A stretch of DNA of 62,144 nucleotides. It comes from Chthoniobacteraceae bacterium (lineage in GTDB: Bacteria > Verrucomicrobiota > Verrucomicrobiia > Chthoniobacterales > Chthoniobacteraceae). The notes below the pieces were generated by a model. It was given only the letters and a program-made list of their open reading frames with translations. It was not told the origin of the DNA and did not search any database. How positions within the stretch are numbered: position 1 is the stretch's first letter; every line of letters starts with the position of its first letter. Location of the stretch: the NCBI GenBank assembly GCA_947471505.1, contig CANIWM010000028.1, positions 1-62,144 of the forward strand. Direction: 5' to 3'. This document shows positions 33,632-61,648 of this stretch, piece by piece. The position numbers were made by a program, and so were the translations under genes.

Positions 33632-33634
33632 GAG

Positions 33635-37897: not shown

Positions 37898-37900
37898 GGC

Positions 37901-39793: not shown

Positions 39794-39805
39794 AGCAGAG
39801 TCGGT

Positions 39806-40462
39806 TCAGAGTTGTTTCAGGTTCTCGAGTTCGTGCGAGACGGAACGAAGCGCAGCATTCAGCTCCACCTTGCGGTTGAATTGTTTTTCCCGTTCGAGCC
39901 GGGCCTCCAATTGCTGACGCTCCCGCTTCTTCGCCTCAAGCGCCCGGAAGCGGGAGACGTGGTCCGCGAGGCTCTCACCTGCGCGCGGGGGCAGCGGGAT
40001 GTGGCGGCGAACGATGTGCTCGTAGAGCCCAGCGAGATCGAGCGCGACCGGGAGCGGTGGACGCTCGGCGGCCAGCGGTTGCGGCTCCGTCTGAAAGCTG
40101 GCCTCGATGACCCACTTCGACGAATCCGCATCGCTGGGGCGCTTGTAAGAAGCAGCAAAGCGGATTTGGTCGCCGTGGGTGAACTGAAAGAGCAGCGGAA
40201 ATGGGATGGCTCGATCCATCGCCTGGAGCACCGCCTCGTCGAGTTCCGGCGTCCTGAGCGCGATCTCAAAGACTTCAATTTCGGTGATGCCGTGCCGGGC
40301 GGGAAGATTGGTCGTTTCCGGGGAGAGTTTGTATTTCCAAAGAATCTCCCCGACCTCGGACACGAAGAGTTCCCTGATCCGCTTCGAGGGCTTGGCGTGC
40401 GCGTAGATTTTGTTCTTCGGAACCACGCGGTTGAACTCGGCTTGTTTCGGGTAGGCAAACAT
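39806..40462 (-). CDS. DUF4391 family protein
   Basis: A 218-residue protein matching DUF4391 by pattern: it begins FAYPKQAEFNRVVPKNKIYA and has EVGEILWKYKLSPETTNLPA, EIEVFEIALR and FPLLFQFTHGDQIRFAASYKR, then a coiled-coil C-terminus (about 165-215). From memory, members usually lie between an SNF2-type helicase and a type III mod gene, exactly as here. The function is unknown; a structural or nuclease-accessory role in the complex is inference. Gaps of 6 bp to the helicase and 12 bp to mod place it in the operon. Confidence 0.75.
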   Translation of the reverse strand: MFAYPKQAEFNRVVPKNKIYAHAKPSKRIRELFVSEVGEILWKYKLSPETTNLPARHGITEIEVFEIALRTPELDEAVLQAMDRAIPFPLLFQFTHGDQIRFAASYKRPSDADSSKWVIEASFQTEPQPLAAERPPLPVALDLAGLYEHIVRRHIPLPPRAGESLADHVSRFRALEAKKRERQQLEARLEREKQFNRKVELNAALRSVSHELENLKQL

Positions 40463-40468
40463 GCGGCA

Positions 40469-43400
40469 TCAGGCACGTGGCTGAACGACGAGGAAGGCGA
40501 TCAACTCGAAGTCGCCGAGTCCATTGATCGTGTTCAGCAAGGCGGTGGTCTTGCCTCCGGTGAAGAGGCTGTCGATGTCCTTCTCCTCCTTCAGCGCAAT
40601 CATGGACTGGATGCCCTTTTGCAAGAGGGCCGAGTAGGCGTCCATGCGGCGGCCGTCCTTGGTGGCGTCGTTGAACGCCTGATACACCTCGGGCATCGCC
40701 ACGCTCCGGTCCTTGCAGGCGGCGCGAGCGAGGTCGAGGAGGCGCTTGGCCTCGGTGTGATTGACGATCACGCTGCCGTCCTGCGCGACATAGACGAGGT
40801 AGTAGGGATGCAGGCGGTTCTGCCGGTTGATGTTCACGCCATCGTTGCGGTTCCGCAGGGCGAAGATGACGCCGGGCACGAGGCCGCGCTCGGGAGCTGC
40901 GGGGACGACGGCGTGCATTCCGTTCGGCAGGCTGGCGAGGTCGCCGTGTGTCTTCACGTAGTTCACGAGGTCCATGCGGAAATCGTTCAGCCCGAGATCG
41001 GTGATGGAGATGCCGGTCTTGAGGTCTTCCAGCTCGATGACTTCCTCTTGAAGCCGGCGAAGCTGCTCGCGGCGGTAGGTGACATCGTTGGCCTTGGCAT
41101 CGAGTGGATTGTCGTCGCCAGTGGCGGTGACGTCGGCGATGACCATGCGGCTTTCGACGCGCTCCTTGAGGTTGATGTATTCGTCGAGCGTGATGTCCGG
41201 CCAGTAGTTCACGAGCTGGATGAACTTGTTCTGCGAGCCTATGCGATCAATGCGGCCAAATCGCTGGATAATGCGGACCGGGTTCCAGTGGATGTCGTAG
41301 TTGATGAGGTAGTCGCAGTCCTGGAGATTCTGGCCCTCGGAAATGCAGTCGGTGCCGATGAGGAGATCAATCTCGCCGGGCTCCTTGGGCAGGATGACCG
41401 CTTTCTCCTTCGAGCGCGGCGAGAAGAGCGTGAGCAGCGATTGGAAGTCGTAGCTCTTTTTCAGCGTGCTCTTCGGGCTGGCGGCGCCGGTAACTTTGCC
41501 GGAATGAAGTCCCGCACTTTCCAAAAAGTAGGGCGCGATGTGCTCGTAGAGATAATCCGCGGTGTCCGCGAAGGCGGTGAAGATGAGGACCTTCTTGTTC
41601 CCCGCATTGATGGGCGAGGCCAGCTTGCTGAGGATCGTCGTCTTTATGTGCTGGAGCTTCGCGTCGTCGGACGGCGTGATTTTCCGCATCTCGGCGAGCA
41701 GGGCTTCGAGGATGGCGAGGTCGGCGCGCAGCTCGTGCTCCCAGCGGGGGAGGTCCATGTCCGAAAGGTTGATCTGCACCTTGTTGCCGATCTGCGCGTC
41801 ATCCGGGTCGGGTATGTCGTCGTCCTGGTCTGGCTCCACGTCGGCGAAGGCGGGAGACACATCGGCAAAGGTGGCGTCGCGCCCTGTCTTCTTGAACGCG
41901 GCGATTTTTTCCAGCGTGCGCTCGTGATTGTCCGCGAGACTCTTGAGGGTGAGGCGGAAGGAATGCACTGAGCTTTCGAGCCGCTTGAGCAGGTTCACGG
42001 TCATGAGCGCTTGGATTCCCTTTTCGCGTCCAGATTGCCCGAGGTTCCCGTGGCCAACCTCGTCGCCCGGATCGTAAAGCTCCTGGTATTTCGACAGACG
42101 GCTCGGTTGCACGTAGGTGAGCGGCGCATACACGGCCAGCGTGAGCATACTCAACTGCTCGAAAATCTCGTTGAAGCCGATGACGTCCTTGCGGTGGGTA
42201 AGCTGGCAATGGAAAGAGAGCGGTTTCAGTCGCTCCGGGAACGTGCCGATGTCCTTCGTATCGTAGTAGGTCTGGATGTGGCGGCGGGAGCGCGCAATCG
42301 TCACGCTGTCGAGCACCTCGAAGAAATCGAAATCGAGCGTGTTGAGAATCGCGGCGGCGGTGCGCTCTTCAGGCGGAAGTGTGGACCAAGCGTTGAACGC
42401 GGCTTGGGCACGACGAAAGATTTCGTCGATGTGCTTTTCGGATTTGAGCTTCGTGCTGAGGTTTTCCGGGTCGCCTTCGTAAGCGAGCGCGAGCTGGTTT
42501 TTCAGGTCGGCGAAGCGGTTGTTCACCGGCGTCGCGGAGAGCATGAGCACTTTCGTTTTCACGCCCTGCCGGACGACTTGATTCAGGAGGCGCTGATACC
42601 GCGTCTCGCGCTCCTCAAAGGCGGTGTTGTTGCGGAAGTTGTGCGACTCATCAATGACCACGAGGTCGTAGTTGCCCCAGTTCACGCGGTTCAGCGCCAG
42701 GCCGAAAGAATAGCCGCTCTCGCGGAGCAGATCAGTGTGGCACAGCACGTCGTAGCCGAAGCGGTCCTTGGCGAAGATGTTCGTGACGAGGTTGCCTTTG
42801 TAGGTGAGCCAGTTGTCTGCGAGCTTCTTCGGGCAGAGGACGAGGACGGACTTGTTTCGCAGCTCGTAGTATTTGACCACGGCCAGCGCGGTGAACGTCT
42901 TCCCAAGTCCCACGCTGTCGGCGAGGATGCAGCCGTTGTAAGTCTCCAGCTTGTTGATGATGCCGGTGGCGGCGTCCCGCTGGAAGTTGAAGAGCTTTTT
43001 CCAAACGAGACTGTCTTCGTAGCCGGTGCGGTCGTTCGGCAAAACATCCTCGCTGATGTCCTCCAGGAACTCGCTGAAGATGTTGTAGAGCATCAGGAAG
43101 TAGATGCGCTGCGGCGAATTCTCCTGATACACGGACGCGATGTGCTCGCAGAGCTTCGCGGTCACGTCTTCAAGCTTTTCGGGGTCGTTCCAAATCTGAT
43201 CGAACAACGAGAGGTAGGTCGTTGTGAGCGGCTGCTCATCCATCCGGTTCACGAAATTGGAAACGGCATTGCCTTTCTCGTAGCCGAGATCCACCGCGGT
43301 GAACCCGTGCAGCGGGAGATAAACGGATTCCTTTCCATCTGCGCTGACGCCCGCGAACTGTTGCATCGGGGCGCGCCCGCGATTCGAGCGAAAAACAGCC

Positions 43401-43747
43401 TTGTTCCGCATCCACTCCGCACACTCTTTGGCGATGGCCCGTTGGGTCAGTTCATTGCGAAGGCGCACCTCGAACTCGCTGCCGTAAAGACTGCGTTCAC
43501 GTTCGAGCTTCGGGATGTGGAATTCGCGGTGCTCCTTCTTCAGCCGGTCGGTGACTTCACCGGGGACGAACGTGGGCGACGTGAAAATAAACTGAAGCGA
43601 CTCGATCTTCTCCAACTCGGCCTTGAGGGCTTCAAAGGCGTAGATGGAGAAGCACGACGCCGCGATCTTGAGCTTCGCTCCGGGCGTGATTGTCTGCTTC
43701 AGGCTGTCACCGAGCAGGTGGTTGATGTTGTCGATTATTTCCATCAT
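40469..43747 (-). CDS. PLD-like plus SNF2-family helicase of the R-M island
   Basis: A 1092-residue helicase-type ATPase. The first 170 residues look like the phospholipase-D-like domain often joined to this helicase group. The SNF2 motor follows: Walker A ADSVGLGKT (GLGKT 280-284), DESH 366-369, LSATP 403-407, then the second lobe with KVLIFTAFADTADYL, LLIGTDCISEGQNLQ and IIQRFGRIDRIG. An acidic linker (DVEPDQDDDIPDPDDAQ near 645) lies between the lobes. It probably translocates on double-stranded DNA and, with DUF4391 and Mod/Res, extends a type III system. The second of two adjacent ATG codons (43744) may also serve as the start. Confidence 0.85.
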   Translation of the reverse strand: MMEIIDNINHLLGDSLKQTITPGAKLKIAASCFSIYAFEALKAELEKIESLQFIFTSPTFVPGEVTDRLKKEHREFHIPKLERERSLYGSEFEVRLRNELTQRAIAKECAEWMRNKAVFRSNRGRAPMQQFAGVSADGKESVYLPLHGFTAVDLGYEKGNAVSNFVNRMDEQPLTTTYLSLFDQIWNDPEKLEDVTAKLCEHIASVYQENSPQRIYFLMLYNIFSEFLEDISEDVLPNDRTGYEDSLVWKKLFNFQRDAATGIINKLETYNGCILADSVGLGKTFTALAVVKYYELRNKSVLVLCPKKLADNWLTYKGNLVTNIFAKDRFGYDVLCHTDLLRESGYSFGLALNRVNWGNYDLVVIDESHNFRNNTAFEERETRYQRLLNQVVRQGVKTKVLMLSATPVNNRFADLKNQLALAYEGDPENLSTKLKSEKHIDEIFRRAQAAFNAWSTLPPEERTAAAILNTLDFDFFEVLDSVTIARSRRHIQTYYDTKDIGTFPERLKPLSFHCQLTHRKDVIGFNEIFEQLSMLTLAVYAPLTYVQPSRLSKYQELYDPGDEVGHGNLGQSGREKGIQALMTVNLLKRLESSVHSFRLTLKSLADNHERTLEKIAAFKKTGRDATFADVSPAFADVEPDQDDDIPDPDDAQIGNKVQINLSDMDLPRWEHELRADLAILEALLAEMRKITPSDDAKLQHIKTTILSKLASPINAGNKKVLIFTAFADTADYLYEHIAPYFLESAGLHSGKVTGAASPKSTLKKSYDFQSLLTLFSPRSKEKAVILPKEPGEIDLLIGTDCISEGQNLQDCDYLINYDIHWNPVRIIQRFGRIDRIGSQNKFIQLVNYWPDITLDEYINLKERVESRMVIADVTATGDDNPLDAKANDVTYRREQLRRLQEEVIELEDLKTGISITDLGLNDFRMDLVNYVKTHGDLASLPNGMHAVVPAAPERGLVPGVIFALRNRNDGVNINRQNRLHPYYLVYVAQDGSVIVNHTEAKRLLDLARAACKDRSVAMPEVYQAFNDATKDGRRMDAYSALLQKGIQSMIALKEEKDIDSLFTGGKTTALLNTINGLGDFELIAFLVVQPRA

Positions 43748-46032: not shown

Positions 46033-46764
46033 ATGAAACTCAGTAAAAATAACAAGTCGTTTGAACCGTGCCCGGAATTTTCGGGCCTCGCCGTCGTCGT
46101 CGATGTGACGCCGCTCAAGAAAGTCGAAACTGCCTACGGGCCGAAGGAGACTTTTAAAATTGTCTTTGAAACGCCGCTCCTTCGCGAGGATGGGACGCCA
46201 TATAGTGTCTGGAGCCGGGGGTTCACGCCTTCCTTGCACGAAAAAGCGGCCTTCGCTCAGTTCCTTCGCAAGTGGTTTGGACGCGCGCTCACTGCCGCAG
46301 AGGAGGCGGAGTTCGACACCGAAGCACTGCTCGGGAAGACGGCAGAAATCACCGTCGTCCACGAGGAAGGAAAAACCGGGGAAACCTACGCGAACATCGC
46401 GCTCATCCGCCCGGACAAAACGGGCAAGGCGATGAAGCCAAGCGGCAAGTTCAAGCGCTTGAAAGATCGCGAACAGACCAACGGAGCGCCAGACGCCGAG
46501 TATCGCCGGACTGAACAATCGGAGGATGCGGGTGAGACGGACGATTGGCGGCGCACGAAGGTTCACATCGGCAAACACAAAGGGCTCGACCTTGGCGATC
46601 TGGACACCGTTGCGGTGAAGGCACTCATCGAGCACTGGCTGCCGGAGGTGAAACTCAAGTCGAAGCTCTTGGCCGACGACCGCCGACTCATCGCGGCGCT
46701 CGAAGCGGCGCAAAAAGCACTCACTGCCGATGGCGAAGTGGACCCCGACAACATCCCTTACTAA
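46033..46764 (+). CDS. Phage-type protein, putative ssDNA-binding
   Basis: A 243-residue protein. The N-terminal half (FSGLAVVVDVTPLKKVETAYGPKETFKIVFETPL, with a following GKTAEITVVHEE strand) looks like the OB-fold-type ssDNA-binding proteins found beside phage exonucleases. The C-terminal half contains KVHIGKHKGLDLGDLD, a short GKxKG element seen in some exonuclease-associated domains. The leader is A-rich (AAAAAAAACATAACAAAACC) without a Shine-Dalgarno site. The next gene, a recombination-type nuclease, starts 15 bp downstream. The assignment rests on pattern and context. Confidence 0.55.
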   Translation: MKLSKNNKSFEPCPEFSGLAVVVDVTPLKKVETAYGPKETFKIVFETPLLREDGTPYSVWSRGFTPSLHEKAAFAQFLRKWFGRALTAAEEAEFDTEALLGKTAEITVVHEEGKTGETYANIALIRPDKTGKAMKPSGKFKRLKDREQTNGAPDAEYRRTEQSEDAGETDDWRRTKVHIGKHKGLDLGDLDTVAVKALIEHWLPEVKLKSKLLADDRRLIAALEAAQKALTADGEVDPDNIPY

Positions 46765-46779: not shown

Positions 46780-47607
46780 ATGATTCTTATCAAACGCGAA
46801 TCCGCGTCGCACTGGTATCTGCGCGACGGCACTCCATTCCACGAAACCGAGCGCGCTGACGGCAAAGGTCTGCGCTCGGTCACCCTCCGCGATGCGCGTA
46901 AAGTTCGCGCATTTCCGAGTGTCACGAACATCCTCAGCATCCTCGCCAAGCCCGGCCTTGATGCTTGGCGCATCGAACAGGGCATTCTCGCAGCGCTCAC
47001 GTTGCCGCGTCCGGAAGAGGAAAGCCTCGACGCCTTCGCCAAGCGTGTTGTCACCGACATGTCGGAGCAGGTCGCCCAAGCCGCCGATCTCGGCAGCGCC
47101 ATTCACGCCGCGTGCGAAGTTTACGCGACCTCGAAGGCATTGCCGGAAAGCCCGGAAGTCGCCGCGTTGTTCGCCCCGGTGCGCGAATGGTTTGATCGGG
47201 ACGTCGAGCGGATTGACTGCATCGAGCGTGTCGTCACTCACCCCGAGTGGGGCTACGGCGGGCGAGTGGACATGGTGGCCAAGCTCAAGAGCACGGGCTC
47301 TTGGGCCGTCGTGGATTTCAAAACGCAGAAGATGAAGCGCGATGCGAAAGGCGCGTTGAAGCCGACGTTCTACGAAACGTGGCCGCTTCAGCTTGAGGCC
47401 TACCGCCAGGCGATCCTCGTCGAGGCTGCGCGCAAGCAACCTCAGGACATCGTCTCGCTGGTCATCAGCTCCATCGAGCCGGTGCCGGTGGTGCCGAAGG
47501 TCTGGCCTCGCGAAGAGCAAACGGCCTACTACCACGCCTTCATCAACGCCCGCAATTTGTGGGTCTGGATGAAGGGATACTGCCCCATCGAATCAACCGC
47601 TGCCTGA
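46780..47607 (+). CDS. PD-(D/E)XK exonuclease, Cas4/RecB-like, phage type
   Basis: A 275-residue nuclease of the RecB/Cas4 superfamily as found in phage recombination or replication modules. Core motifs are SVTNILSILAKPGLDAWRIEQG near the start, the histidine in AADLGSAIHAACE, GGRVDMVAKL (metal-binding Asp) and WAVVDFKTQK (Asp and Lys of the core), then QLEAYRQAI, the QxxxY motif. It probably resects DNA ends to single strands for annealing, with the upstream ssDNA-binding-like protein as partner. Confidence 0.8.
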   Translation: MILIKRESASHWYLRDGTPFHETERADGKGLRSVTLRDARKVRAFPSVTNILSILAKPGLDAWRIEQGILAALTLPRPEEESLDAFAKRVVTDMSEQVAQAADLGSAIHAACEVYATSKALPESPEVAALFAPVREWFDRDVERIDCIERVVTHPEWGYGGRVDMVAKLKSTGSWAVVDFKTQKMKRDAKGALKPTFYETWPLQLEAYRQAILVEAARKQPQDIVSLVISSIEPVPVVPKVWPREEQTAYYHAFINARNLWVWMKGYCPIESTAA

Positions 47608-47816: not shown

Positions 47817-47971
47817 TGAAATCTATTCTTCTTACGCAGCTCCATCACCCGCCAGTCGGACCACGGGCTCACTCACGCAACCGCCGCCGATACACCTGGC
47901 CGTGGCGCATTCTCTTCCTGCTTGTCGGCTTTGCGCTCGGCTGGGCTGTGCGCGGCTTCATACCGCTATGA
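47813..47971 (+). CDS. Small single-pass membrane protein
   Basis: A 52-residue protein with a basic N-terminal part (HSRNRRRYTW) and one membrane segment near the C-terminus (WRILFLLVGFALGWAV), so it probably sits with its N-terminus inside the cell. It overlaps its neighbours by ATGA at both ends, which supports expression. Function unknown. Confidence 0.55.
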   Translation: MMKSILLTQLHHPPVGPRAHSRNRRRYTWPWRILFLLVGFALGWAVRGFIPL

Positions 47972-49206
47972 TCGACGACGGCACCACATTCGAGCGGCTG
48001 GTGAACGCGGGCGAAAACGTCTGCCTCACCGGCCCGGGCGGCACCGGAAAGAGCTTCCGAACTCGGCGGATGATCGCGGGTAATCCCGCTCGTTTCGCTG
48101 TCACGGCCTCGACCGGCATCGCCGCACTCAACATCGGCGGACTCACCCTCCACCGATGGAGCGGCATGATGCTCGGGCCACAGAACGGCGAAACCAACGA
48201 GGACTATCTCGCGCACCTCATGGCGGACAAACGCTTCAGCGTGCGTGCGGGCTTTAACCGCATCCGCAGCGTAGAAACGCTCGTCATTGACGAGGTTTCA
48301 ATGCTCAACGGGCGGACGCTCGATTTCCTAGACTTCCTCGCTCGGAGACTGCGCGGAAATGATCGTCCATTCGGCGGCATTCAGATGATCGTCACGGGCG
48401 ATTTTTGCCAGCTCCCGCCGGTCAAAAAGGACCCGCGTGCGCCCTACGACTGGGCGTTTGAATCCCGCTCGTGGAGGGAGGCGGACTTCCAAGTGGTTCA
48501 CCTCACCAAAATCCACCGGCAAAACGACGCTAATTTCATCCGTGCCCTTTCCGAGTTTCGCTTTGGCCGCGTCACCGGCCAAAACGCCCGCCTGCTACGC
48601 TCGCGCGTCGCCAAGTTTCCCGACGCCAACCTCACGAGGCTCTTCACGCACAACGCGCAGGTGGACAAGTGGAACGCTTACCGGCTTGGCGAAATCGACA
48701 GCGAGCCGGAGGTCTTCGACGCCGAGCTTAGCGGCCCGGAACACCAGCAGCAGTTTCTCATCAACAATCTGCTCACCCCACAGCAGCTCGAACTCAAGCG
48801 CGGTGCGCGTGTCATGTTCACGGTCAACAGCAGCGAGGGCGGCTTCGTCAACGGGCAGACCGGCATCGTAACGGACTTCGCTTGGGGACGGATCATGGTC
48901 GAATCCGAGGGGCGACAAATTTCCGTCGAGCCCTTCGCTTGGCCCTACGACAGCCGCGATAAAAACAGCGCCACCTTCCGGCAATTCCCGCTGCGGCTCT
49001 CATTTTCGGTCACCATTCATAAAGCCCAAGGACTCACCCTCGATTCCGCCTACATCGATGTGCGTGCGGCGCGCGAACCTGGGCAGGCTTACGTGGCACT
49101 CTCGCGGCTGCGTGGACTTTCTGGATTGCACCTCAAGGACTGGTTCTCCGGCGTCTTCGTCAGCAAAGCGGCCACCGATTTCTACGCACACCTCAACGGC
49201 AACTGA
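47968..49206 (+). CDS. PIF1/RecD-like SF1 helicase
   Basis: A 412-residue SF1B helicase: Walker A CLTGPGGTGKSF (about 19-30), TASTGIAAL, VIDEVSML as motif II, IVTGDFCQLPPV as motif III, ARVMFTVNSSEGGFVNGQTGIV, and the C-terminal VTIHKAQGLTLDSAYIDV and YVALSRLRGLSGL. It unwinds DNA 5' to 3' and is a usual member of phage and mobile-element replication modules. Its start overlaps the small membrane protein (ATGA) and its stop overlaps the polymerase fusion gene (TGATG), so the three are translationally linked. Confidence 0.9.
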   Translation: MIDDGTTFERLVNAGENVCLTGPGGTGKSFRTRRMIAGNPARFAVTASTGIAALNIGGLTLHRWSGMMLGPQNGETNEDYLAHLMADKRFSVRAGFNRIRSVETLVIDEVSMLNGRTLDFLDFLARRLRGNDRPFGGIQMIVTGDFCQLPPVKKDPRAPYDWAFESRSWREADFQVVHLTKIHRQNDANFIRALSEFRFGRVTGQNARLLRSRVAKFPDANLTRLFTHNAQVDKWNAYRLGEIDSEPEVFDAELSGPEHQQQFLINNLLTPQQLELKRGARVMFTVNSSEGGFVNGQTGIVTDFAWGRIMVESEGRQISVEPFAWPYDSRDKNSATFRQFPLRLSFSVTIHKAQGLTLDSAYIDVRAAREPGQAYVALSRLRGLSGLHLKDWFSGVFVSKAATDFYAHLNGN

Positions 49207-52200
49207 TGGACTGGAACGCGATCAAACTTTTCTACCTCGACTGCCGCAGCTTCAAGGCGACGGCGGAGCGATTTGGCGTGGCCATCGAAGCTCTCAAGAA
49301 ACGCGCACAGCGCCAGCGGTGGAGGGACATCGAGGGGACATCGCAGAGCGCAGAGGGGACAAATGTCCCCTCGACGGAAGGCACTGAGGAGACATGCACC
49401 GCTGGTGAGGGGACATCGCAAACCGAAAATGTCCCCTCTACGACCGCAAATGTCCCCTCGATGTCCCCTGACGCCCCGGCGGATGTCCCCTCTACGAGCG
49501 CAAATGTCCCCCCGATGTCCCCTCACGCATCGGCGGATGTCCCCTCCACGGATTCAAATGTCCCCTCCGATGTCCCCTCTGCCGCTGCTGATGTCCCCTC
49601 AATCTTCACCCCCGACGTCACGACCTACCCGAACGCGATGTCGCCGGGGTCACCGGCTGTGGACACCATCGCGTCCGTCCTCGACGCGATTCAGTCCGGC
49701 CAGTTCCGCTCGGAAATCGAGGAACTGCGGCGCGTGCTTGGGCGCGATGGCAAGACGGCTTACGACCGCGCGAAGACCAGGCTCCCGGCGTTCTGCGTTT
49801 CCGGCACGACCGCCGACCGCAAGCGCCTCCTCAAGCACACGGGCCTGCTGCAAATCGATTTCGACGGACTCAACGGGACGCTCGCCGCCGCGCGGCAAAA
49901 AATCTCTGGCGATCCGCACGTTGCCGCCGCGTTCGTCTCACCAAGCGGTGACGGGCTCAAAGTGCTGCTCCGCATTGATGGCTCGCGGCACGACGAAAGC
50001 GTGCGCGCCGCCGCCAAATACTTCGCCGACACCTACGGCCTCAAACACGACCCGCAGGTAAAGGAGCCGACGAGGCTCTGCTTCGTCTCGCACGACCCCG
50101 ACCTTTTACGCAACGCCGAGGCCACGGTGTTTCCCATCGCCGAAGACCAAAGCAGCGTGCCCAAGAACGGTCGCGGTCGCCCGAAAAAGGAGCGCGCGTG
50201 GTGGGCGGTGTTCAAGGGCGCACTCAGCACGCTCGATCTCGCCGCAATCTTTAGGGAAGCGGCGATGCTCGGCGAATGTCTCGATCCCGATACCGGCAAA
50301 TGGGCCGTGCGCTGTCCGTGGGCCGAGGAACACGGCAACGGTGGCACCGACTGGAAGGCGAACGCGAGCGACACGGTGATTTTCGCCGAACGCGATTTCC
50401 CCGCCTTCAAGTGCCTCCACGGCCACTGCGCGGAGCGGAAGATCGAGGACATCTGCACTTGGTTTGAAGCGCGCAAGCCCGGCTGCGTGGACGCGCACTG
50501 CGCCGAGCGCCGCGTATGGGAGGAAGGGCAAACGAACGCCGCCGGGCGTCCGCGCACCCTGCTTCCCGCCGATGACCGCCCGGATTCCGTCTTCGCCGAT
50601 GAGCTGGGCGTCGTGCTTGAACCGAAGCGCGAATGGTTCCTGAAATCGGATGCCGTCGTCTCCGTCGAATTGCGACGCCTCAGCGAAAAAGTCCGTGCAC
50701 TCGCCTTCCGCACGATCCAACCGGTCGAGGCGCGCACCGCCATCGAGAAGCACGTCGAAACGGGCTTCCTCGCGCTCGAACGCGACTCCGGCGATCTCGT
50801 CTTTCGCTCCCGCACGATGACGCGCGAGTGCGCCGGTGGATTGCTCGCTGCGCCGCAGTTCAAAGAGCGCCTGCCCGTCATCCTCCGCATCCTCAACGTG
50901 AGTCTGCCCATTCGCACCGAGAGCGGCGGCATCGTCTTCCCGAAGCCCGGCTACGACCCGCGCTTTCACACCTACACCGATCCGAACTCGCCCGAACTGC
51001 GGCTCATGTCGCTCGACGAAGCGCGCCAGTGGCTCCTCGATTTGCACGAGGGCTTCTGCCTCAAAGATGAGCAGAGCACCACGCACCAGATCGCCCGCCT
51101 GTTCACGCCATTCTGCCGCGGACTCATGGGCTGGGACGCTCGCTTTCCTGTCTGGGCCTTTATGGCGAACCGCCCACGCTCCGGGAAAGACTACCTCGCC
51201 GGTGTGACCCAGCTTCTCTACGAGGGCTGGACCTGCGAGGACGCGCCGCTCGGAATCGACAGCGAAGAAACGCGCAAACGCATCACGGCGGCACTGGTCG
51301 CGGGGCGGCGCACGATGCACTTCGCCAACTGCCAGGGCTACATTCAGGACGCCGTGTTCATCGGCTCGATCACGAGCAAGACGTTCGCCGCCCGCGCGCT
51401 CGGTAGCACCGACGCCAAGGCCGACCTCATCCTGCCAAACGAGCTGGAGTTCAGCTTGTCGGCGAACGAAGGGCTGACGTTCCGCACCGACCTCGAACCG
51501 CGCACGCGCAAGATCGCCCTCGAGTTCGGCGAGGAAAACGCCAACGGCCGCGTGTTCAAAAATCCGCGCCTTCACGATTGGGTAAGCGCGCATCGTGGCC
51601 AGCTCCTGAGCGCGGTCGGCGCGTTCGTGCGGAACTGGATGGACGCGGGCTGTCCGTCCGGGCCGACACCCTTCAATTCATACCCCGAATGGGCCGCAGT
51701 TGTCGGCGGCATCCTCCACGCCGGCGGCCTAGGCGATCCGTGCCTGCCCCACCAGGACGACGGGCTCGAAGTCGGCGGCGACCGCGAGGACCGCGCGATG
51801 CGGGCGCTCTACGCGCTCTGCTTCGAGGCGCATCCCGAGCAGTGGATCGACAAGGGCATGGTCTTCGAGTTGGTCGCCAACAGCGACGACAACGACGCCC
51901 TCGGCTGGTTCGGCAGTTTCGCCGAGAGCGAGGCACGTGGCACCAAGACCAAGATCGGCCTTCTGCTTCGCAAATTCCGCGGCCGTGAGATGAGCGGCGT
52001 GATGCTCGAAATTGATGCGAGCGGCGGGCGCTCCGACCGCCGACAACTTCGTTTCGCACGCCGCCAAGCGACGCGTGGCTACCAAATCGCCGATCTTTTC
52101 AACCTCCACCGTGGAGACGTTGGAGACGTTGGAGACGTTGCCCCCATCCGTCAGACCGCAGACAAATTAATTCATCCCTCAAATGGGACACACAATTACA

Positions 52201-53981
52201 CATCCATGAGTACACCAACTAGGGCAAACGTCTCCAACGTCTCCAACCTCCCAACCGGCCCGGTGCCGCGACTTCTGCGCGGAGCAAACGCGCTGCGCGA
52301 GATCGCGGGCTTCGTGCGTGAGGCCGGTTTGGTCGCGCTCGACATCGAAACATTCGGCGCGCGGAAGACCGACGCACTTGATCCGTGGCGCGGTGAGATT
52401 CGGCTGTTGAGTCTGTGCGTCGAAGGGCACGAGCCGTGGCTGCTCGACCTTCAGGCGACGGGCTACGACCTTGGACCGCTCGGGGCGGCGCTGGCCGATG
52501 CGGAGGTCATTGCCCACAACGCGAAGTTTGATGCGCTGTGGCTGCGTGTGAAGTGCGGCGTCAAATTGCCGCGAGTGTTCTGCACGCTGACCGCAGCGCG
52601 GCTGCTCGTCGCCGGCACGCGGCCCGGCAACGATCTCGACCGCTGCCTAGAACGCTACCTCGGCATCGCGCCGGGTGACGATCACAGCACCTCGGATTGG
52701 GGCGGGATGTTCCTGACCGACGACCAGCTCGCCTACGCTGGGCGCGACGTGCGTCACCTGCACGCGCTCCGGGGCAAACTCATGGACGAGATCGCCGCCG
52801 CTGCGCTCGATGCCGTGGCCCAGCTCGAAATGCAGTTGCTCCCCGTCATCGTGGAGATGGAAGCTGCGGGCCTCGCCGTGGACCGCGCCAAGCTCGATGC
52901 GATCCGCGCCGCCGGTGTTGCCGAATCTTCGGCGCGTGCGGCGGAGCTGCGGATCGCGCTCAACGAACCGGCGCTCAACGTGTCGAGCCCGCAGCAGCTC
53001 CAAGCGGCGCTTCAACGGGCCGGAGTCACCGTCGCCAGCACGAACGAGGAAACGCTCAAGGAAAGCGGCGACACGCGGTTCGTGCCGCTCGTGCTCGCGT
53101 ATCGCGGAGCGGAAAAGCAGGCGCAACAGGCGGTCGCGCTCATCGAGAGCATCTCCAAAGACGGACGCATCCACGGTCGCTTCGAGCCGACTGGCACCGC
53201 GACCGGCCGTTTCAGCAGCCGTGAACCAAACCTCCAAAACATCGGGCGAGGCCCGTTGCGCGAGTGCTTCATCGCGCCCGAGGGCACCAAGCTCGTCGTC
53301 GCCGACTACTCACAAATCGAACTGCGCGCGGCAGCGGCCATCGCCGGTGAGACGAAAATGATCGAGGCGTATCAGCGCGGCGAAGACCTCCATCGCGGCA
53401 CGGCGGCAGCGGTGCTCGGAAAGACGATGGAGACGGTGACGAAGGAAGACCGCCAGCTTTCGAAGGCTATAAATTTTGGATTACTTTACGGTCAGTCCGC
53501 ACCCGGCCTGGTGAAATACGCCGCCTCCAGCTACGGCGTGACGTTGCCCGAGGACGACGCGAAGGAAATCCGGGCCAAGTTTTTCCGCACCTACGGCAGC
53601 CTTCGCCAGTGGCATGGCGAAAGTCATCGCCGCGCCGAGCAAGGCGTGCGCGAAATCCGCACCGTGCTCGGTCGTCGTCGACTCGTCCCGCAGGAGGCAT
53701 CCGCGTGGGAACGATTCACCGCACTGGTCAACACGCCCGTTCAAGGCGGCTGCGCGGATGGGATGAAACGCGCCCTTGTTCAGCTTGCCACCGCGCTGCC
53801 GCCATCCGCACGCATCGTCAGCACGGTGCATGACGAGATCATCGTCGAGGCACCGGAGCACGAAGCCGAGGACATCCGCCGCACGGTGGAGGCGGTCATG
53901 ATCGAGGCGATGGCGGCGCTGTTCCCGCAGGTTCCGGTCGAGGTTGAATCAAACGTGTGCGCGAGCTGGGGAGACAAATAA
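49206..53981 (+). CDS. HTH / primase-like / ATPase / family A DNA polymerase fusion
   Basis: A 1591-residue replisome fusion. Residues 1-45 form an HTH-like unit. Residues 43-132 are a repeat-coded NVPS linker. Residues about 150-310 resemble the BT4734/VirE-N primase-like domain. Next is a Cys/His element (FKCLHGHCAER, Cys403-Cys408), then a D5-like ATPase region with a non-canonical P-loop NRPRSGKD (Lys661). After a linker at about 970-1010 come the proofreading exonuclease (ALDIETF, Asp1046 and Glu1048) and a complete family A polymerase: motif A VADYSQIELR (Asp1367), motif B RQLSKAINFGLLYG (1416-1429), motif C TVHDEI (Asp1543). Primase, motor and polymerase are normally separate proteins. 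An internal ATG at 52206 could also give the polymerase alone. Confidence 0.88.
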   Translation: MDWNAIKLFYLDCRSFKATAERFGVAIEALKKRAQRQRWRDIEGTSQSAEGTNVPSTEGTEETCTAGEGTSQTENVPSTTANVPSMSPDAPADVPSTSANVPPMSPHASADVPSTDSNVPSDVPSAAADVPSIFTPDVTTYPNAMSPGSPAVDTIASVLDAIQSGQFRSEIEELRRVLGRDGKTAYDRAKTRLPAFCVSGTTADRKRLLKHTGLLQIDFDGLNGTLAAARQKISGDPHVAAAFVSPSGDGLKVLLRIDGSRHDESVRAAAKYFADTYGLKHDPQVKEPTRLCFVSHDPDLLRNAEATVFPIAEDQSSVPKNGRGRPKKERAWWAVFKGALSTLDLAAIFREAAMLGECLDPDTGKWAVRCPWAEEHGNGGTDWKANASDTVIFAERDFPAFKCLHGHCAERKIEDICTWFEARKPGCVDAHCAERRVWEEGQTNAAGRPRTLLPADDRPDSVFADELGVVLEPKREWFLKSDAVVSVELRRLSEKVRALAFRTIQPVEARTAIEKHVETGFLALERDSGDLVFRSRTMTRECAGGLLAAPQFKERLPVILRILNVSLPIRTESGGIVFPKPGYDPRFHTYTDPNSPELRLMSLDEARQWLLDLHEGFCLKDEQSTTHQIARLFTPFCRGLMGWDARFPVWAFMANRPRSGKDYLAGVTQLLYEGWTCEDAPLGIDSEETRKRITAALVAGRRTMHFANCQGYIQDAVFIGSITSKTFAARALGSTDAKADLILPNELEFSLSANEGLTFRTDLEPRTRKIALEFGEENANGRVFKNPRLHDWVSAHRGQLLSAVGAFVRNWMDAGCPSGPTPFNSYPEWAAVVGGILHAGGLGDPCLPHQDDGLEVGGDREDRAMRALYALCFEAHPEQWIDKGMVFELVANSDDNDALGWFGSFAESEARGTKTKIGLLLRKFRGREMSGVMLEIDASGGRSDRRQLRFARRQATRGYQIADLFNLHRGDVGDVGDVAPIRQTADKLIHPSNGTHNYTSMSTPTRANVSNVSNLPTGPVPRLLRGANALREIAGFVREAGLVALDIETFGARKTDALDPWRGEIRLLSLCVEGHEPWLLDLQATGYDLGPLGAALADAEVIAHNAKFDALWLRVKCGVKLPRVFCTLTAARLLVAGTRPGNDLDRCLERYLGIAPGDDHSTSDWGGMFLTDDQLAYAGRDVRHLHALRGKLMDEIAAAALDAVAQLEMQLLPVIVEMEAAGLAVDRAKLDAIRAAGVAESSARAAELRIALNEPALNVSSPQQLQAALQRAGVTVASTNEETLKESGDTRFVPLVLAYRGAEKQAQQAVALIESISKDGRIHGRFEPTGTATGRFSSREPNLQNIGRGPLRECFIAPEGTKLVVADYSQIELRAAAAIAGETKMIEAYQRGEDLHRGTAAAVLGKTMETVTKEDRQLSKAINFGLLYGQSAPGLVKYAASSYGVTLPEDDAKEIRAKFFRTYGSLRQWHGESHRRAEQGVREIRTVLGRRRLVPQEASAWERFTALVNTPVQGGCADGMKRALVQLATALPPSARIVSTVHDEIIVEAPEHEAEDIRRTVEAVMIEAMAALFPQVPVEVESNVCASWGDK
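49332..49600. repeat. Iteron-like array of TGTCCCCTC words inside the fusion gene
   Basis: Exact TGTCCCCTC starts at 49364, 49430, 49451, 49484, 49516, 49538, 49559, 49571 and 49592. The complement GAGGGGACA starts at 49332, 49353 and 49407. One-mismatch copies start at 49386 (inverted), 49462 and 49505. Start-to-start distances are all 11-12 or 21-23 bp. Part of this comes from a 54-bp tandem duplication (49451, 49505, 49559). The word is read as NVPS/DVPS, MSP or EGT depending on phase and strand, so the DNA rather than the peptide is conserved. It resembles an in-gene replication origin. Confidence 0.8.
52113..52247. repeat. GGAGACGTT inverted repeat with A/T-richer centre inside the fusion gene
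   Basis: Three tandem GGAGACGTT (52113, 52122, 52131) face two AACGTCTCC (52227, 52236). The arms 52119-52139 and 52227-52247 are perfectly complementary over 21 bp with an 87-bp loop. The loop is A/T-richer than the gene (for example ACAAATTAATTCATCC) and contains an in-frame ATG at 52206. The array encodes the linker (GDVGDVGDV and NVSNVSN) between the ATPase and polymerase parts. Confidence 0.75.
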
Positions 53982-54541
53982 TGGACGACGACTACACCAA
54001 ACGCCAGACGCGCAAAGACGCAGCCCACGCGCACGAATACCGCGAATGGATTGCCTCGCTTCCGCCCGACGAGCGGCGGCGCATGGCAGAGCTGGGCCTC
54101 GCCGAGCCGTTGCGCGAAGTGGATGGCTACGGCTGGGGCGACAGCGATGCTGCGGATTTCCCCGAGGCGTCCGAAAAACCCAAGCTGCCACTCGAAGCCG
54201 AGGAACTGCCGGAGAAAGTCGCCGCCATCGAAAACGAGACGGTGCTCGATATTCTGCGCCGTCTCATCGGCGAGTTGCTCGCGGAGCGCAACGCCCGCCT
54301 CAGCCTTGAGTGCCTCGCGCTCGCCACCGGCTTTTCGTACCTCGGCGGCACGATGACCGACATCGCCCGGCGGCACTGCGTCACTCGCGCGGCGGTGAGC
54401 AAACGCTGCGTGGAGCTGATCGAGCGACTGAATCTGCATCCCTCGCGTGCGATGCGCTCTTTGACAGCCCGCCGCGCTTATCAAGCAGCCCAGATCTCAA
54501 CCCGCAAAAGCTATGAACAATTTGGAAACCATCACACCTAA
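53981..54541 (+). CDS. HTH protein of the replication module
   Basis: A 186-residue protein. The N-terminal half is charged and helical. The second half contains GGTMTDIARRHCVTRAAVSKRCVELIERL, a helix-turn-helix of the sigma-region-4 or small-terminase type. The ATG overlaps the polymerase stop by one base (TAATG). It ends inside the next gene, overlapping it by 29 bp. It could be a late regulator or a DNA-packaging adaptor; the sequence does not decide. Confidence 0.6.
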   Translation: MDDDYTKRQTRKDAAHAHEYREWIASLPPDERRRMAELGLAEPLREVDGYGWGDSDAADFPEASEKPKLPLEAEELPEKVAAIENETVLDILRRLIGELLAERNARLSLECLALATGFSYLGGTMTDIARRHCVTRAAVSKRCVELIERLNLHPSRAMRSLTARRAYQAAQISTRKSYEQFGNHHT

Positions 54542-55890: not shown

Positions 55891-56496
55891 TCACCCCACG
55901 CCACCGCCGGACGTGTGGAGCAGCGTGAACACTTCATCCAACGCCTTGGCGCACTCCGCTTGAATCGCCGTGGCATCCAGCCCAGAGAGCACCGGCGGCA
56001 ACTCCATCTCGAACTTGTGGCGAAACATATCTTTGGCCCGCGCCACCAGCTCAGTCCATGAAGTCCGCACTTCCTCCATCGCGACGTATTCGCCCTTCTT
56101 CACGGCCAGACGCAGTTCGCGCTCCTCGACTTCCGCCAAGAGCTTTCGCGCACGCAGGGCCGTCTCCACATCCGTGGCAGCCGCTTCGCCCTCCAGCCCG
56201 TTGCGCTCCATGAACTCGCGCCACGCCGCCACTTCATGAAACCCGTTCGCCGCTGCCTTCGGCGCGTCCTTGCGCTTGCGCCAGTTTTGGAGCGCACGTC
56301 GCGTCACCCCAAGTGCCTTGGCCAATTCGACGAAGTTTTCCGCCACGGTGACGGCATTGCCCGCACTGGCAGCCATGCCCTGAAGCATCGCACGTTCGGA
56401 ACGATTGAGTTTGCCGCCACCCTGCACTCGCTGAACGAGGTTGGCAAAATCTCGATTGAGCAGCTTCTTGGCGATGTCAGGCGGTATGGTGTCCAT
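55891..56496 (-). CDS. Terminase small subunit-like DNA-packaging protein
   Basis: A 201-residue protein resembling Nu1-type small terminases. It has an HTH (TVAENFVELAKALGVTRRALQNWRKRKDAPKAAANGFHEVAAWREFM) and then a helical part, ALRARKLLAEVEERELRLAVKKGEYVAMEEVRTSWTELVARAKDMF. Small terminases recognise packaging sites for a large subunit, but no large terminase lies in this window. It points against the replication module and has a palindromic AGTGGGAACG operator-like site just upstream. This fits a phage remnant or a satellite that redirects packaging. Confidence 0.7.
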   Translation of the reverse strand: MDTIPPDIAKKLLNRDFANLVQRVQGGGKLNRSERAMLQGMAASAGNAVTVAENFVELAKALGVTRRALQNWRKRKDAPKAAANGFHEVAAWREFMERNGLEGEAAATDVETALRARKLLAEVEERELRLAVKKGEYVAMEEVRTSWTELVARAKDMFRHKFEMELPPVLSGLDATAIQAECAKALDEVFTLLHTSGGGVG

Positions 56497-56984: not shown

Positions 56985-58268
56985 GTGCGTATTCTCTGCA
57001 CCGCAGATCTTCACATTGGCCGAGTTTCCTCGCGCTTGCGAGAGGGAACGGATTCGACCGCGTTCACCACCCGCGCCGCGTGGCTGCGTGTGGTAGATCT
57101 GGCTCTGACGGAGAAAGTCGACGCGGTCGCAGTGGCAGGTGACGTAATCGACGCGAGTGGTAATTATTTCGAGGCATTTGGCCCACTCGAGACGGGATTG
57201 CGCAGATTGTCGGGCGCAGGGATCGAGACATTCCTCGTCGCTGGAAATCACGACTTCGATTCGTTGCCGCGTTTCTGCGACCAATTCCGAGACCCTCGTG
57301 TCCATCTACTCGGCCGCGGCGGAGTGTGGCAGCGCCATACACTCGCACGCGAAGGTGTCCCGCGGCTCCACATCGACGGCTGGTCCTTTCGCGCAGCCGA
57401 TCATCGTGCGAACCCGCTGCTCGGCTATCGCTGCGAGCGCGACGCCACGCCGGTGCTAGGTCTGCTCCATTCGGACGTAGAGGGCGCTTACAGCTCATAC
57501 GCGCCGTGCTCTCCCGCGGAGTTGCTGTCCGCCGGTCCGACGCTGTGGTTGCTCGGCCACATTCACCGGACAAATCAATGGAGCACGAGTTCCGCCATCG
57601 CATTTTACCCCGGCTCTCCGCAGGCGCTTGATCCGGGCGAACGCGGCGTGCATGGCGCATGGGTCATCGACTGGCCGCCTGGAAGCCCGCCCGCACTGCG
57701 GCACTGTCCTCTTTCAACAATGCGTTATGAGACGCTGGCGCTGGGTTTAGACGGATGCGACGACGAGCCCATGATCGAGGCCGCGTTGCACGGCTTGCTG
57801 GAAGAAAAATTACGCGCGGGCGCTGCCGAAGCCGGGCCGCTCGCACTGCTGACCTGCCGTGTACGGCTGCAAGGGCGCACAAAGCGGCACTCTCACCTCG
57901 CGCGTCACGGCTGGCCGCGCATCGATCAGCTCTGCCGCACCGCGCAAGGCGTCACCGCAGTAATCGAGCGCGTCGAGGTGGACACGCGTCCCGTGCTCGA
58001 TCTCGACGTGCTCTCGCAGGGGACCAGTCCGCCATCGTTTCTGGCGCGGCTGCTCCTCGCACTCGAGCGTGGCGAAAATCATCCGCTGCTCGGTGCAGCG
58101 CAGCAGCACATCGAGACCGCCTTCCGCAAGATGTCCGTCGACGGCGACAGCGAGCCCGGCGGTGAGGCCGCACCGACGCAGGAAATTCCCGACGCTGCGC
58201 GCGTGCGAGCGCTTCTCCTCACACAAGGCCACCGAATGCTCGGTCAGCTCGTCGATCCCGCGCCATGA
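56985..58268 (+). CDS. YhaO/SbcD-like DNA repair phosphoesterase
   Basis: A 427-residue Mre11-type metallophosphoesterase. All metal motifs are standard: CTADLHIGR (DLH), VAGDVIDAS, VAGNHDFDS, GLLHSDVEG and LLGHIHRTN. The C-terminal half is a capping region. It begins with GTG. The downstream Rad50-like gene overlaps by 4 bp (ATGA), as expected for obligate partners. Unlike the pair at 30.6-34.8 kb, this one keeps the histidine of the first motif, and the two proteins differ widely in sequence. Confidence 0.88.
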   Translation: MRILCTADLHIGRVSSRLREGTDSTAFTTRAAWLRVVDLALTEKVDAVAVAGDVIDASGNYFEAFGPLETGLRRLSGAGIETFLVAGNHDFDSLPRFCDQFRDPRVHLLGRGGVWQRHTLAREGVPRLHIDGWSFRAADHRANPLLGYRCERDATPVLGLLHSDVEGAYSSYAPCSPAELLSAGPTLWLLGHIHRTNQWSTSSAIAFYPGSPQALDPGERGVHGAWVIDWPPGSPPALRHCPLSTMRYETLALGLDGCDDEPMIEAALHGLLEEKLRAGAAEAGPLALLTCRVRLQGRTKRHSHLARHGWPRIDQLCRTAQGVTAVIERVEVDTRPVLDLDVLSQGTSPPSFLARLLLALERGENHPLLGAAQQHIETAFRKMSVDGDSEPGGEAAPTQEIPDAARVRALLLTQGHRMLGQLVDPAP

Positions 58269-61200
58269 CGACGCGCGCGTTGCACTTTCTTGAAGTCGAT
58301 CTGCGGCGAGCGCCCGGCTGCGCGCGGGGCTGGCGGCTGCGCAATCTCAGTCCCGGCATTAACGTCATCGTCGGCCCGAACGCGTCTGGTAAAACAACTA
58401 CCGCGCGCGCACTGACGACGGTGCTGTGGCCAGCTACCGCCGAACCGCGCACGGAAATCGTTGCGAGCTTTTCGCTGGAGGGTGCGACATGGCATGCGGA
58501 GATCGACGGAGGGCACGCTATATTTCAGCGCGAAGGCCAGCCAGCCGAGCGTCCACCAATGCCTGCGGCAGAGACAATGCGCGGACGCTGCAACGTCGCG
58601 CTGCACGACCTGCTGAAAACTGGTGATGACGAAATCGCCCGCGAGATACTCCGCGAGGCTGCGGGAGGTTTCGACATAGACGCGGTGGCCAGAGAACTCG
58701 GATTCGACGAGAGAGCACGGTTCGCGAGCGGCATTGTTGATGAGTTCCACGCCTCGCAGCGACAGGTGCAAGGGATCGAACAGGACTTGCGCGCTGTTGC
58801 AACGGAATCTGCTCGGCTCGGGGACCTCGCGAATCGAATCGATGCGGCGAAACTTGCGCGGGATCGGGCCGGGCTCGTCGCGCAGGCGATCGAAAAGCGC
58901 CGTCACCTCGCGGCACACGATGCGGCAAAGGCGGAGCTGGCGCGCTTTGATGCGCGCCTCGAAAAAGTCGCGGGCAACGAGCTGATACAATTCGAAGAAA
59001 AACAGCGGACGCTGGAGGCGCTGCGCGAACAGGCGGACGCCGCGCGAGACGCCATCGCCGGGGCAGACGCAGAAATCGCGGAATGCCATCTGCCGGATGG
59101 CGGTATTCCAGAGGCTCAACTCACCGAACTTCACCTGCGGCTGGACGTCCTTCGTTCAAAAGATGTCGAACTCGACAGGCTTAAGTATGACGCCGCCGCA
59201 GCGCAGGCGCGCGAGGAACAAGCCCGTCAGGTGCTCGGCGCAGACGAGCAATGTGCTGCGCTCGACCTCCCGGCATTGGGCGAGATTGCCGCATTTTCTC
59301 GCGAATGGGACGATTTGCACTTCGATCAGACCGCCGCGCAGCACTGGCGCGAATGGCTCGGCGAACCGGGCGAGTCCGTTTCGATCGACGCGCTTCGCGA
59401 AGCCGCGTTTGTGCTCGGGCAATGGCTCCGCTCACCGACCGCGCCTCCAGATGGCCCGCGTTGGCTGCTTCCGGCCCTGCTCGCGCTCGGGGCGCTCATC
59501 GCACTTGGCAGCGTCTCGCTCGCGCTTACTGGCGTGCGCGCGGCATGGATTGGATTCCTGCTGGGACTCGCCGTTCTCGCCGTTGCATTTGCACTGCGCG
59601 CGAGAGTCGCGGCATCTCCGTCGCCGATGTTCCCAAGCGGAGGGGTCGAGCCGCCACACGCCTGGGAGACTGGGGCGGTGCAGGAGCGGCTCGAGGAGAT
59701 TCAGCGCGCGGTCGCCGCAGGACTAGTCGCGGAGGAAAGACGCCGCGCACTCGACGCGCGCGAACCGGAGCGCGAGCGACTCGCAGTGCGCCGTCAGCAG
59801 CTTGAAGCGCAGCGCCGCACGCTAAGCGAGGAACTCGGACGCGAGTTCGATCCGCGTCTTTTCACCACCTTCGTCCAGCAACTCGCTGCATGGCGCGAGG
59901 CGCGCGCCGAGTCAGCAACACTCGTCGCAAAGATCGCGGAAATCGAGGTAGCGCGGGATACCGCGATGGCTGCGATTCGCGAAACTCTCGCGCCCTTTGA
60001 GGCGACGGCACCTCGCGATCTCGCGGCAGCGGCGGCTTCCATCGACCATTTGGGTGCGCGCGCGCAACGCTGGCGCACTGCGCGACAGGAAGCTATGGCA
60101 CGGCAGCGCGAGCTCGGACAATTCGGGCGGCAGAGCGCGCGCATCGAGGGCGAGATCGCCGCGATCTTCGCGGTCGCGCAGGTTTCCGACGCAACAGCGC
60201 TCACGCGACTGCTGGAGGGCTTCGATAATTTCAAGGCTGCCCGCAACGCGGAGAATGCGCATCGAGGGCTGAGCAATGAAGCGGCGAAGTTCTTTTGCGA
60301 GCACGCCGGACTTGAATCCCCGCCGGTGGAGGCACTCGAGCTCGAACGCGAGGAGGCGGCGGCGCTCGGCCGGAGCGTCGAAGCGCTGGTCGAGGAGAAG
60401 GCGTCCATCGAAACGAAGATCGACGGGGCGAAGCGGCGCACGGCGCTCGAAGATGCGGTTGCCAGACGCGAGGTGTGCAAGCGCACGCTGCTCGACGATC
60501 GCGACGCGAAGCTCGATGCGCTGGGGGGCCAACTCATCGCGACGCACCTGCGCGAGCAGATGAGCGAGCGAGCAATGGGGCCGGTGTTCGATCGCGCACG
60601 CGAGTTCTTTGGTGGATTCACGGCGCATGCATGGGAACTGGTACCGCCGGATGAGGATGGTGTCTTTCGCGCACGCGACACCGTCGCGGGCGGGGCGAGC
60701 CGCGGCCTGGACGAGCTTTCGAGCGGCACACGCGTGCAACTGCTGCTCGCAGTGCGCGCTGCGTTTGTCGCCGGCGAGGAGCGCGCGTTCGATGTGCAGC
60801 TTCCGTTGTTCCTTGATGAGACGCTCGCCAATAGCGACGACCGACGGGCACAGCAAATCATCGAGGCTATCGCTGAACTCGCCCGCGACGGACGACAGAT
60901 ATTCTACTTCACTGCGCAGGCGGACGAGGTTGCCAAATGGCGCGAATTCTTTTCAGCACACTCGGAGGTTCCGCACCACATCGCCGATCTCGCGGTGGCG
61001 CGTGGCGAGGCCGCGACTCCAGACTTCGAGCGCATCGCCCAGCCGCCGCCGATCTCGGCGCCGCCGCCCGGCGAGCTTTCCTATGATGAATATAGCCTGC
61101 TTGTGGGAGTCCCGCAGTTCGATCCACAAAGTTCGATCGGCGCGGTGCATCTGTGGCACATGTGTGAGGACACCGCGACACTCCACGGGCTGCTCGCGAT

Positions 61201-61648
61201 GGGTTTCGAGCGCTGGGGACAGATCGAGGACGTGCTGCGGCACAACGGCGAGAAGCTGATTGGCAGCTCCGCGCGGCTGCGTGCGAATGCGCGGTTGATC
61301 GAGGAACTCTGCCTCTGCTGGCAGCACGGACGCGGTCGTGCGCTCGTGCGCGAGGCGCTGACCGAGGCAGGTGTGAGCGGAAATTTCATCGACCGTGTAT
61401 GGAAGGTCGCCTGCAATCTTGGTCGCGACGCGCAGCGACTGCTTAACGCGATGAATCGCGGTGAAATCCCGCGTTTGCAAAAGGCTACGATTGAACGGTT
61501 TCGGGAGTATTGTGAAGAGAGCGGCTACGTCTCACGCGAAACTCCACTTGATGCAGCGGTGATCCGCGGAAGGATCCAGGCGCTGGCGATCGAGCTCGGT
61601 GTCGATATGGCGCGAGTCGATGCGCTGCTGGCGAAAATCTTGGCGTGA
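58265..61648 (+). CDS. YhaN/SbcC-like ATPase with membrane hairpin and extra C-terminal domain
   Basis: A 1127-residue Rad50/SMC-type ATPase: Walker A IVGPNASGKTT (about 36-46), a long coiled coil, and the C-terminal lobe with LDELSSGTRVQLLLAVRAAF and LPLFLDETLANSD. Two adjacent hydrophobic segments (about 398-450) interrupt the coiled coil, as in YhaN-type proteins, which suggests membrane attachment. After the ATPase the protein continues for about 200 helical residues (from ELSYDEYSLLVGVPQF to the end). I do not recognise this extension; part of it (HLWHMCEDTATLHGLLAMGFERW) resembles neither ATPase nor coiled coil. With its upstream partner it probably processes DNA ends. Confidence 0.85.
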   Translation: MTTRALHFLEVDLRRAPGCARGWRLRNLSPGINVIVGPNASGKTTTARALTTVLWPATAEPRTEIVASFSLEGATWHAEIDGGHAIFQREGQPAERPPMPAAETMRGRCNVALHDLLKTGDDEIAREILREAAGGFDIDAVARELGFDERARFASGIVDEFHASQRQVQGIEQDLRAVATESARLGDLANRIDAAKLARDRAGLVAQAIEKRRHLAAHDAAKAELARFDARLEKVAGNELIQFEEKQRTLEALREQADAARDAIAGADAEIAECHLPDGGIPEAQLTELHLRLDVLRSKDVELDRLKYDAAAAQAREEQARQVLGADEQCAALDLPALGEIAAFSREWDDLHFDQTAAQHWREWLGEPGESVSIDALREAAFVLGQWLRSPTAPPDGPRWLLPALLALGALIALGSVSLALTGVRAAWIGFLLGLAVLAVAFALRARVAASPSPMFPSGGVEPPHAWETGAVQERLEEIQRAVAAGLVAEERRRALDAREPERERLAVRRQQLEAQRRTLSEELGREFDPRLFTTFVQQLAAWREARAESATLVAKIAEIEVARDTAMAAIRETLAPFEATAPRDLAAAAASIDHLGARAQRWRTARQEAMARQRELGQFGRQSARIEGEIAAIFAVAQVSDATALTRLLEGFDNFKAARNAENAHRGLSNEAAKFFCEHAGLESPPVEALELEREEAAALGRSVEALVEEKASIETKIDGAKRRTALEDAVARREVCKRTLLDDRDAKLDALGGQLIATHLREQMSERAMGPVFDRAREFFGGFTAHAWELVPPDEDGVFRARDTVAGGASRGLDELSSGTRVQLLLAVRAAFVAGEERAFDVQLPLFLDETLANSDDRRAQQIIEAIAELARDGRQIFYFTAQADEVAKWREFFSAHSEVPHHIADLAVARGEAATPDFERIAQPPPISAPPPGELSYDEYSLLVGVPQFDPQSSIGAVHLWHMCEDTATLHGLLAMGFERWGQIEDVLRHNGEKLIGSSARLRANARLIEELCLCWQHGRGRALVREALTEAGVSGNFIDRVWKVACNLGRDAQRLLNAMNRGEIPRLQKATIERFREYCEESGYVSRETPLDAAVIRGRIQALAIELGVDMARVDALLAKILA

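Follow-up and report, generated by a model that had tools for sequence, protein, structure and literature searches.

In phage lambda, the iterons of ori lie inside gene O and are bound by dimers of the O protein through its N-terminal DNA-binding domain (PMC5043065, PMC6022878). Likewise, the oriL of phage SPP1 lies in gene 38, where repeats within the initiator gene are bound by its product, the replisome organizer gp38 (PMC6316719). Iteron origins inside genes are already known. In mobile elements, AEP primases can be fused to HTH or winged-helix domains (e.g., PolpTN2-like proteins), and the DNA-binding domain is suspected to find the origin (PMC5862659). In the open-access literature that we searched, which excludes most subscription papers, we found no fusion of a site reader to a replicase, no array behind the HTH in every member of a group and no transfer of helix and array, as a pair, from one backbone to an unrelated one. 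The same search returned no description of the replication origins of Verrucomicrobiota phages, Akkermansia phages included.

The DNA analysed here (the window, 62,144 nucleotides from a Chthoniobacteraceae bacterium) carries the gene of a 1591-aa replication protein that begins with an HTH (Table 1). AlphaFold2 models residues 1–40 as three helices, with a mean pLDDT of 88–94 in blocks of 10 residues, and a fold search with this N-terminal HTH yields weak matches, mostly to HTH DNA-binding domains; a weak match to Sigma70_r4_2 was also obtained. A central helicase-like region is inferred from phage families of unknown function. Profile searches with the protein gave no match to the lambda O family, its recognised domains being the BT4734-like primase and polymerase A. 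The surrounding replication module is phage-derived since it comprises genes for a PIF1/Dda helicase and a PD-(D/E)XK exonuclease, phage genes whose function is unknown and a gene resembling those of terminase small subunits. No structural genes other than the latter were recognised around the module, and the element may therefore be incomplete, possibly a remnant.

Table 1. Coordinates of the replication module and of the features of the 1591-aa gene in the window
Feature	Position	Strand	Remarks
Conserved module gene	46033–46764	+	Function unknown; 59% identical in L121
PD-(D/E)XK exonuclease gene	46780–47607	+	74% identical in L121
PIF1/Dda-like helicase gene	47902–49206	+	Same replication module; 66% identical in L121
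Replication protein, 1591 aa	49206–53981	+	HTH, array-encoded linker, BT4734-like primase domain, inferred central helicase-like region, 3'-5' exonuclease, family-A DNA polymerase
N-terminal HTH, residues 3–37	49212–49316	+	Helices 3–13, 16–23, 27–37; presumed array reader
Recognition helix, residues 27–37	49284–49316	+	IEALKKRAQRQ; covaries with word between relatives
Array, 15 copies of TGTCCCCTC	49332–49600	.	11 on +, 4 inverted; presumed iterons / in-gene origin
BT4734-like_N (PF08800), residues 189–300	49770–50105	+	Primase-type domain; profile match
DNA_pol_A_exo1, residues 1028–1196	52287–52793	+	3'-5' exonuclease; profile match
DNA_pol_A, residues 1251–1590	52956–53975	+	Family-A polymerase; profile match
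Phage gene	53957–54541	+	Directly follows displaced array in HTH-less relatives
Terminase small subunit-like gene	55891–56496	-	Marks module as phage-derived

The array codes for the linker between the HTH and the primase domain. It consists of 12 exact and three one-mismatch copies of TGTCCCCTC or its inverse GAGGGGACA: nine exact copies on the plus strand (49364, 49430, 49451, 49484, 49516, 49538, 49559, 49571, 49592), three exact inverted copies (49332, 49353, 49407) and the one-mismatch copies at 49386 (inverted), 49462 and 49505 (both plus). The rest of the window contains only three more one-mismatch matches, and dinucleotide shuffles of the whole window give about 12.5 matches per 62 kb, i.e., an expectation of about 0.05 per 269 bp. 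The 6.07-Mb genome contains ATGTCCCCT 27 times: 12 copies are inside the array and the others are single and scattered. The sites follow each other at one per one or two helical turns. Their centres keep a period of 10.9 bp (resultant 0.96; p=0.0003 when compared with random spacings), although a 54-bp direct repeat starting at 49429 (copies 91% and 67%) makes the sites non-independent. This repeat accounts for part of the regularity of the array, not for the inverted copies, which lie outside it.

The array is genuine and under selection as DNA, because synonymous recoding that kept the peptide and drew on the gene's own synonymous codons left a mean of 0.15 exact copies (maximum 3 in 5000) compared with the 12 observed, and because the valine codons of the array are GTC in 9 of 9 cases as against 41 of 93 in the rest of the gene. 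The word is translated in three ways, as N/DVPS, MSP and EGT. A model had previously read this locus without database searches, and what this sequence-only reading described held on recount, all of its counts and positions included: an HTH-like N-terminus ahead of the array, in a primase-polymerase gene; nine plus-strand, three inverted and three one-mismatch copies; spacings of 21, 11, 22 bp and so on, near one or two turns of B-DNA; a 54-bp tandem duplication with the inverted copies of 49332–49407 outside it; and the readings NVPS, MSP and EGT. Its claim that selection acts on the DNA is supported, and further strengthened by the comparison with relatives. It had proposed a genome-wide count of the word, and the rarity of the word elsewhere speaks in its favour. 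It had also held that homologues keeping the peptide and losing the word would refute it; the opposite is seen in L125, a relative with the same word, which keeps the word in other frames and not the peptide.

Using the HTH as query, we searched whole genomes and viral contigs for relatives. Twelve further distinct genes were found in which a relative of the HTH heads a long replication protein, and in all 13 genes, window included, the group signature xDWxxVRxFYLxCRSYKxTAExFG... is N-terminal and an in-gene array lies directly behind the HTH, with 5–15 exact copies of a 7-mer within 450 bp. The words of the 12 others are TGTCCCC, TGCACCT, TGTAGCC, TG[AC]TACC, TGAACCC, TGAACAC, TGCATTG, GCATACC and T[GT]CACCC. 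By comparison, no array was found behind any of 78 stand-alone HTH genes, whose proteins end in the HTH (no 7-mer in more than 4 copies in 450 bp), nor at the 5' end of any of 25 HTH-less primase relatives (none in more than 4 copies there). Phasing at about 10.8–11.1 bp is found at p<0.05 in nine further arrays and is not significant in those of L121, L064 and L240. The backbones behind HTH and array are of the BT4734-like/PolA (window), Prim-Pol plus exonuclease (L121), DUF5906 (L125 group) and AAA_25 (L240) types. A scan of viral contigs with the full-length protein found only one distant polymerase, and GenBank phage records yielded no relative of the L125 protein. The Akkermansia genome G185, with contig JAUNQN010000021.1, is of the same class as the window genome.

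Elsewhere, the window's own genome encodes a stand-alone protein that has the same HTH at its C-terminal end, without an array behind it (L003/L097, contig C108, 17142–17294). Such C-terminal HTH proteins, on contig C108 as elsewhere, were considered as readers or array carriers and rejected, as no arrays lie behind them. In HTH-less relatives of the primase, different 7-bp words (GTGTCCC, GTGTCCG, CCCCCGA, TGCGCCT, TGCGGCT, TCCCTAT) form arrays at the primase gene's 3' end or just downstream of it (L207 7140–7405, L208 7140–7408, L212 7140–7415, L078 7277–7537, L079 8281–8521, L080 8248–8437, L081 7230–7503), and their reader is unknown. The phage gene at 53957–54541 was rejected for this role since its HTH helix does not vary with the word. 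Further word clusters occur near primase relatives, in L231 (5205–5559) and in L071 (3538–3936 and 4659–5057), with CTCCACC in nine copies and CCTCTCA and CGACCTC in eight each.

Most array words have the form TGNNNCC, and they differ between genes together with the recognition helix (Table 2). Word distance is predicted by recognition-helix distance (Mantel r=0.29, p=0.006; r=0.38, p=0.0008 with an alternative register of the L121 word), but not by the distance between protein bodies (r=0.13, p=0.31). For the two L121 registers the relation persists in partial tests given the body (p=0.007/0.001) or helices 1 and 2 (p=0.0013/0.0001). In addition, the same helix goes with the same word in front of differing bodies: MRAYREKW with TGTAGCC in L225 and L278, and NRAIRG with TGATACC in L237 and L271. 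A KKRxQR helix and the word TGTCCCC are common to the window and L125, whose bodies are unrelated. In these 13 genes the words track the recognition helix rather than the remainder of the protein. Thirteen genes are a small sample, without full independence among them, and the arrays were examined with the pattern in mind; the 8-mers, for their part, were returned by an automatic search.

Table 2. Recognition helices and array words of HTH-headed replication genes
Gene	Recognition helix	Word
Window	IEALKKRAQRQRW	TGTCCCCT
L125	PDTIKKRCQRENW	TGTCCCCT
L225	PQTIKMRAYREKW	TGTAGCCT
L278	AQTVKMRAYREKW	TGTAGCCT
L237	IAQVKNRAIRGKW	TGATACCT
L271	IAQIKNRAIRGNW	TGATACCT
L236	MVQVKNRAIRGNW	TG[CA]TACCT
L234	AQTVKTRCRREKW	TGAACCCT
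L284	PDTIRTRCRREQW	TGAACACT
L064	ENTIKAKVRRGNW	TGCACCT
L126	ISTLNARAYREKW	TGCATTG
L121	IGSIKARAHREKW	GCATACC
L240	LETVRTRAKRW	T[GT]CACCCT

Recognition helix and array are also exchanged together between relatives. L125 and L126, phages from different metagenomes, are 96% identical on both sides of one divergent block of about 210 bp (L125 6077–6288), the only one in the stretch, which begins at the recognition helix and finishes where the array does; the two proteins share identical helices 1 and 2. A binding specificity changed together with its sites would be expected to look like this, binding data being absent.

We propose that the 1591-aa protein serves a prophage or phage-derived island as its replication initiator-replicase. 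The HTH at its N-terminus would recognise the TGTCCCCTC sites in its own gene, directly behind the HTH codons, and many copies of the protein would line up along one face of the helix, with a site about every 10.9 bp or every two turns. The bound copies would tether the primase and polymerase parts of the same protein at the array, which would be the origin of the element. The design would be that of lambda ori in gene O, except that initiator and replicase are here one fused protein. HTH and array move and change as one cassette, relatives having swapped recognition helix and array together. That the HTH reads the array, as the sequence-only reading suspected, is very likely, and the idea is strengthened by the finding that every HTH-headed relative has an array of its own whose word changes with the recognition helix. 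The constant pairing, the covariation and the cassette swap all bear on this point; it nevertheless remains an inference from comparison, with no binding data. Since the reader belongs to a primase-polymerase or primase-helicase, its simplest role is to gather the enzyme at the array, i.e., at an origin. A lambda-O-like in-gene origin, also suggested by the earlier reading, is supported by the comparison and likely, and we hold the explanation as a whole to be probable in the absence of any binding or replication experiment. The sequences themselves show the array, its constraint at the DNA level, its phasing, its regular pairing with this HTH, the covariation of helix and word and the cassette swap; physical binding, assembly of a nucleoprotein complex and firing at or beside the array are all inferred.

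The window array resembles the lambda system in the position of the sites inside the initiator's own gene, in its presumed N-terminal reader, in its symmetrical sites and in domains joined by a linker. However, lambda O has a P-binding, helicase-recruiting domain where the reader is here fused to primase and polymerase or to helicase enzymes, and lambda has four 19-bp repeats where these arrays have 8–24 copies of 7–9-bp words in mixed orientation. Lambda also has an A+T-rich element, and none was found near the window array: the 150 bp downstream are 67% GC and no 50-bp stretch falls below 48% GC from 400 bp upstream to 900 bp downstream of the HTH start, the lowest value (48%) being reached 210 bp upstream of the HTH. 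Nor does the GC skew switch at the array; as an origin mark it is uninformative. The lack of an A+T-rich region and of a skew signal counts against origin activity. SPP1 oriL likewise has its repeats inside the initiator's own gene, where binding by the product is only presumed for the window; it differs by its A+T-rich unwinding element and its separate loader (gp39) and helicase (gp40), and no sequence relation of the window system to oriL or gp38 was found. PolpTN2-like fusions share the joining of a primase to a DNA-binding domain, but their origin recognition is speculative and no site is known, whereas here the sites lie in the gene and covary with the HTH.

The main rival explanation is that the HTH reads the array for autoregulation, the bound protein repressing or blocking transcription of its own gene while replication starts elsewhere. 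Phage and plasmid initiators are often autoregulated, and all the evidence linking HTH and word fits any DNA-binding role. However, 8 to 24 sites placed 120–400 bp inside the coding region far exceed what an operator needs, and a repressor has no need of being joined to primase, helicase or polymerase parts. We thus consider this unlikely as the sole function, while both roles could conceivably coexist. A more remote idea is that the same HTH reads the array as a partition, copy-control, packaging or recombination site. It can invoke a distant likeness of the HTH to those of terminase small subunits (weak matches to phrog_2606 and Terminase_5), but the reader forms one protein with replication enzymes, the terminase small subunit has a gene of its own and no partition gene was recognised in the module, all of which makes it very improbable.

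It is about as hard to maintain that another protein, from the host or the phage, reads the array and that its place behind the HTH is a coincidence. The arrays of HTH-less relatives do have a reader other than a fused HTH, but the association of 13/13 versus 0/78 and 0/25, the covariation of helix and word and the cassette swap all stand against it. Finally, the repeat could be one of peptide, a linker grown by tandem duplication with the DNA word as a by-product. The 54-bp duplication exists and the spacings of the L121 array are mostly multiples of 3. Yet the window array has three readings and copies on both strands, half of its spacings are not multiples of 3, equal words lie in other frames in L125, and words are exchanged together with the recognition helix; with the recoding result added, this explanation can be all but dismissed.

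If the preferred reading of a self-read in-gene origin is taken further, HTH and array would form an exchangeable cassette of origin specificity, mounted on at least four replication backbones in Verrucomicrobiota phages, with recognition helix and 7–9-bp word co-evolving by a readable code. Taking these points jointly, we lean towards this bolder view; if true, each phage lineage would own an orthogonal origin. The matched pairs of HTH and word, near-isogenic swap included, provide a ready natural series for the study of origin recognition, of origin immunity between related phages and of the protein-DNA code of a minimal 40-residue HTH. They also suggest a rule for locating origins, namely to search behind the HTH of fused primase genes.

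As to the surroundings of the replication module, two SbcD/SbcC-like gene pairs (nuclease plus AAA/coiled-coil; 30614–34807 and 56985–61648) flank it, as judged by eye. By Pfam matches, the stretch 34868–43747 holds a type III restriction-modification pair (endonuclease 34868–37897, methylase 37901–39793) adjoining an SNF2-type helicase (40469–43747).
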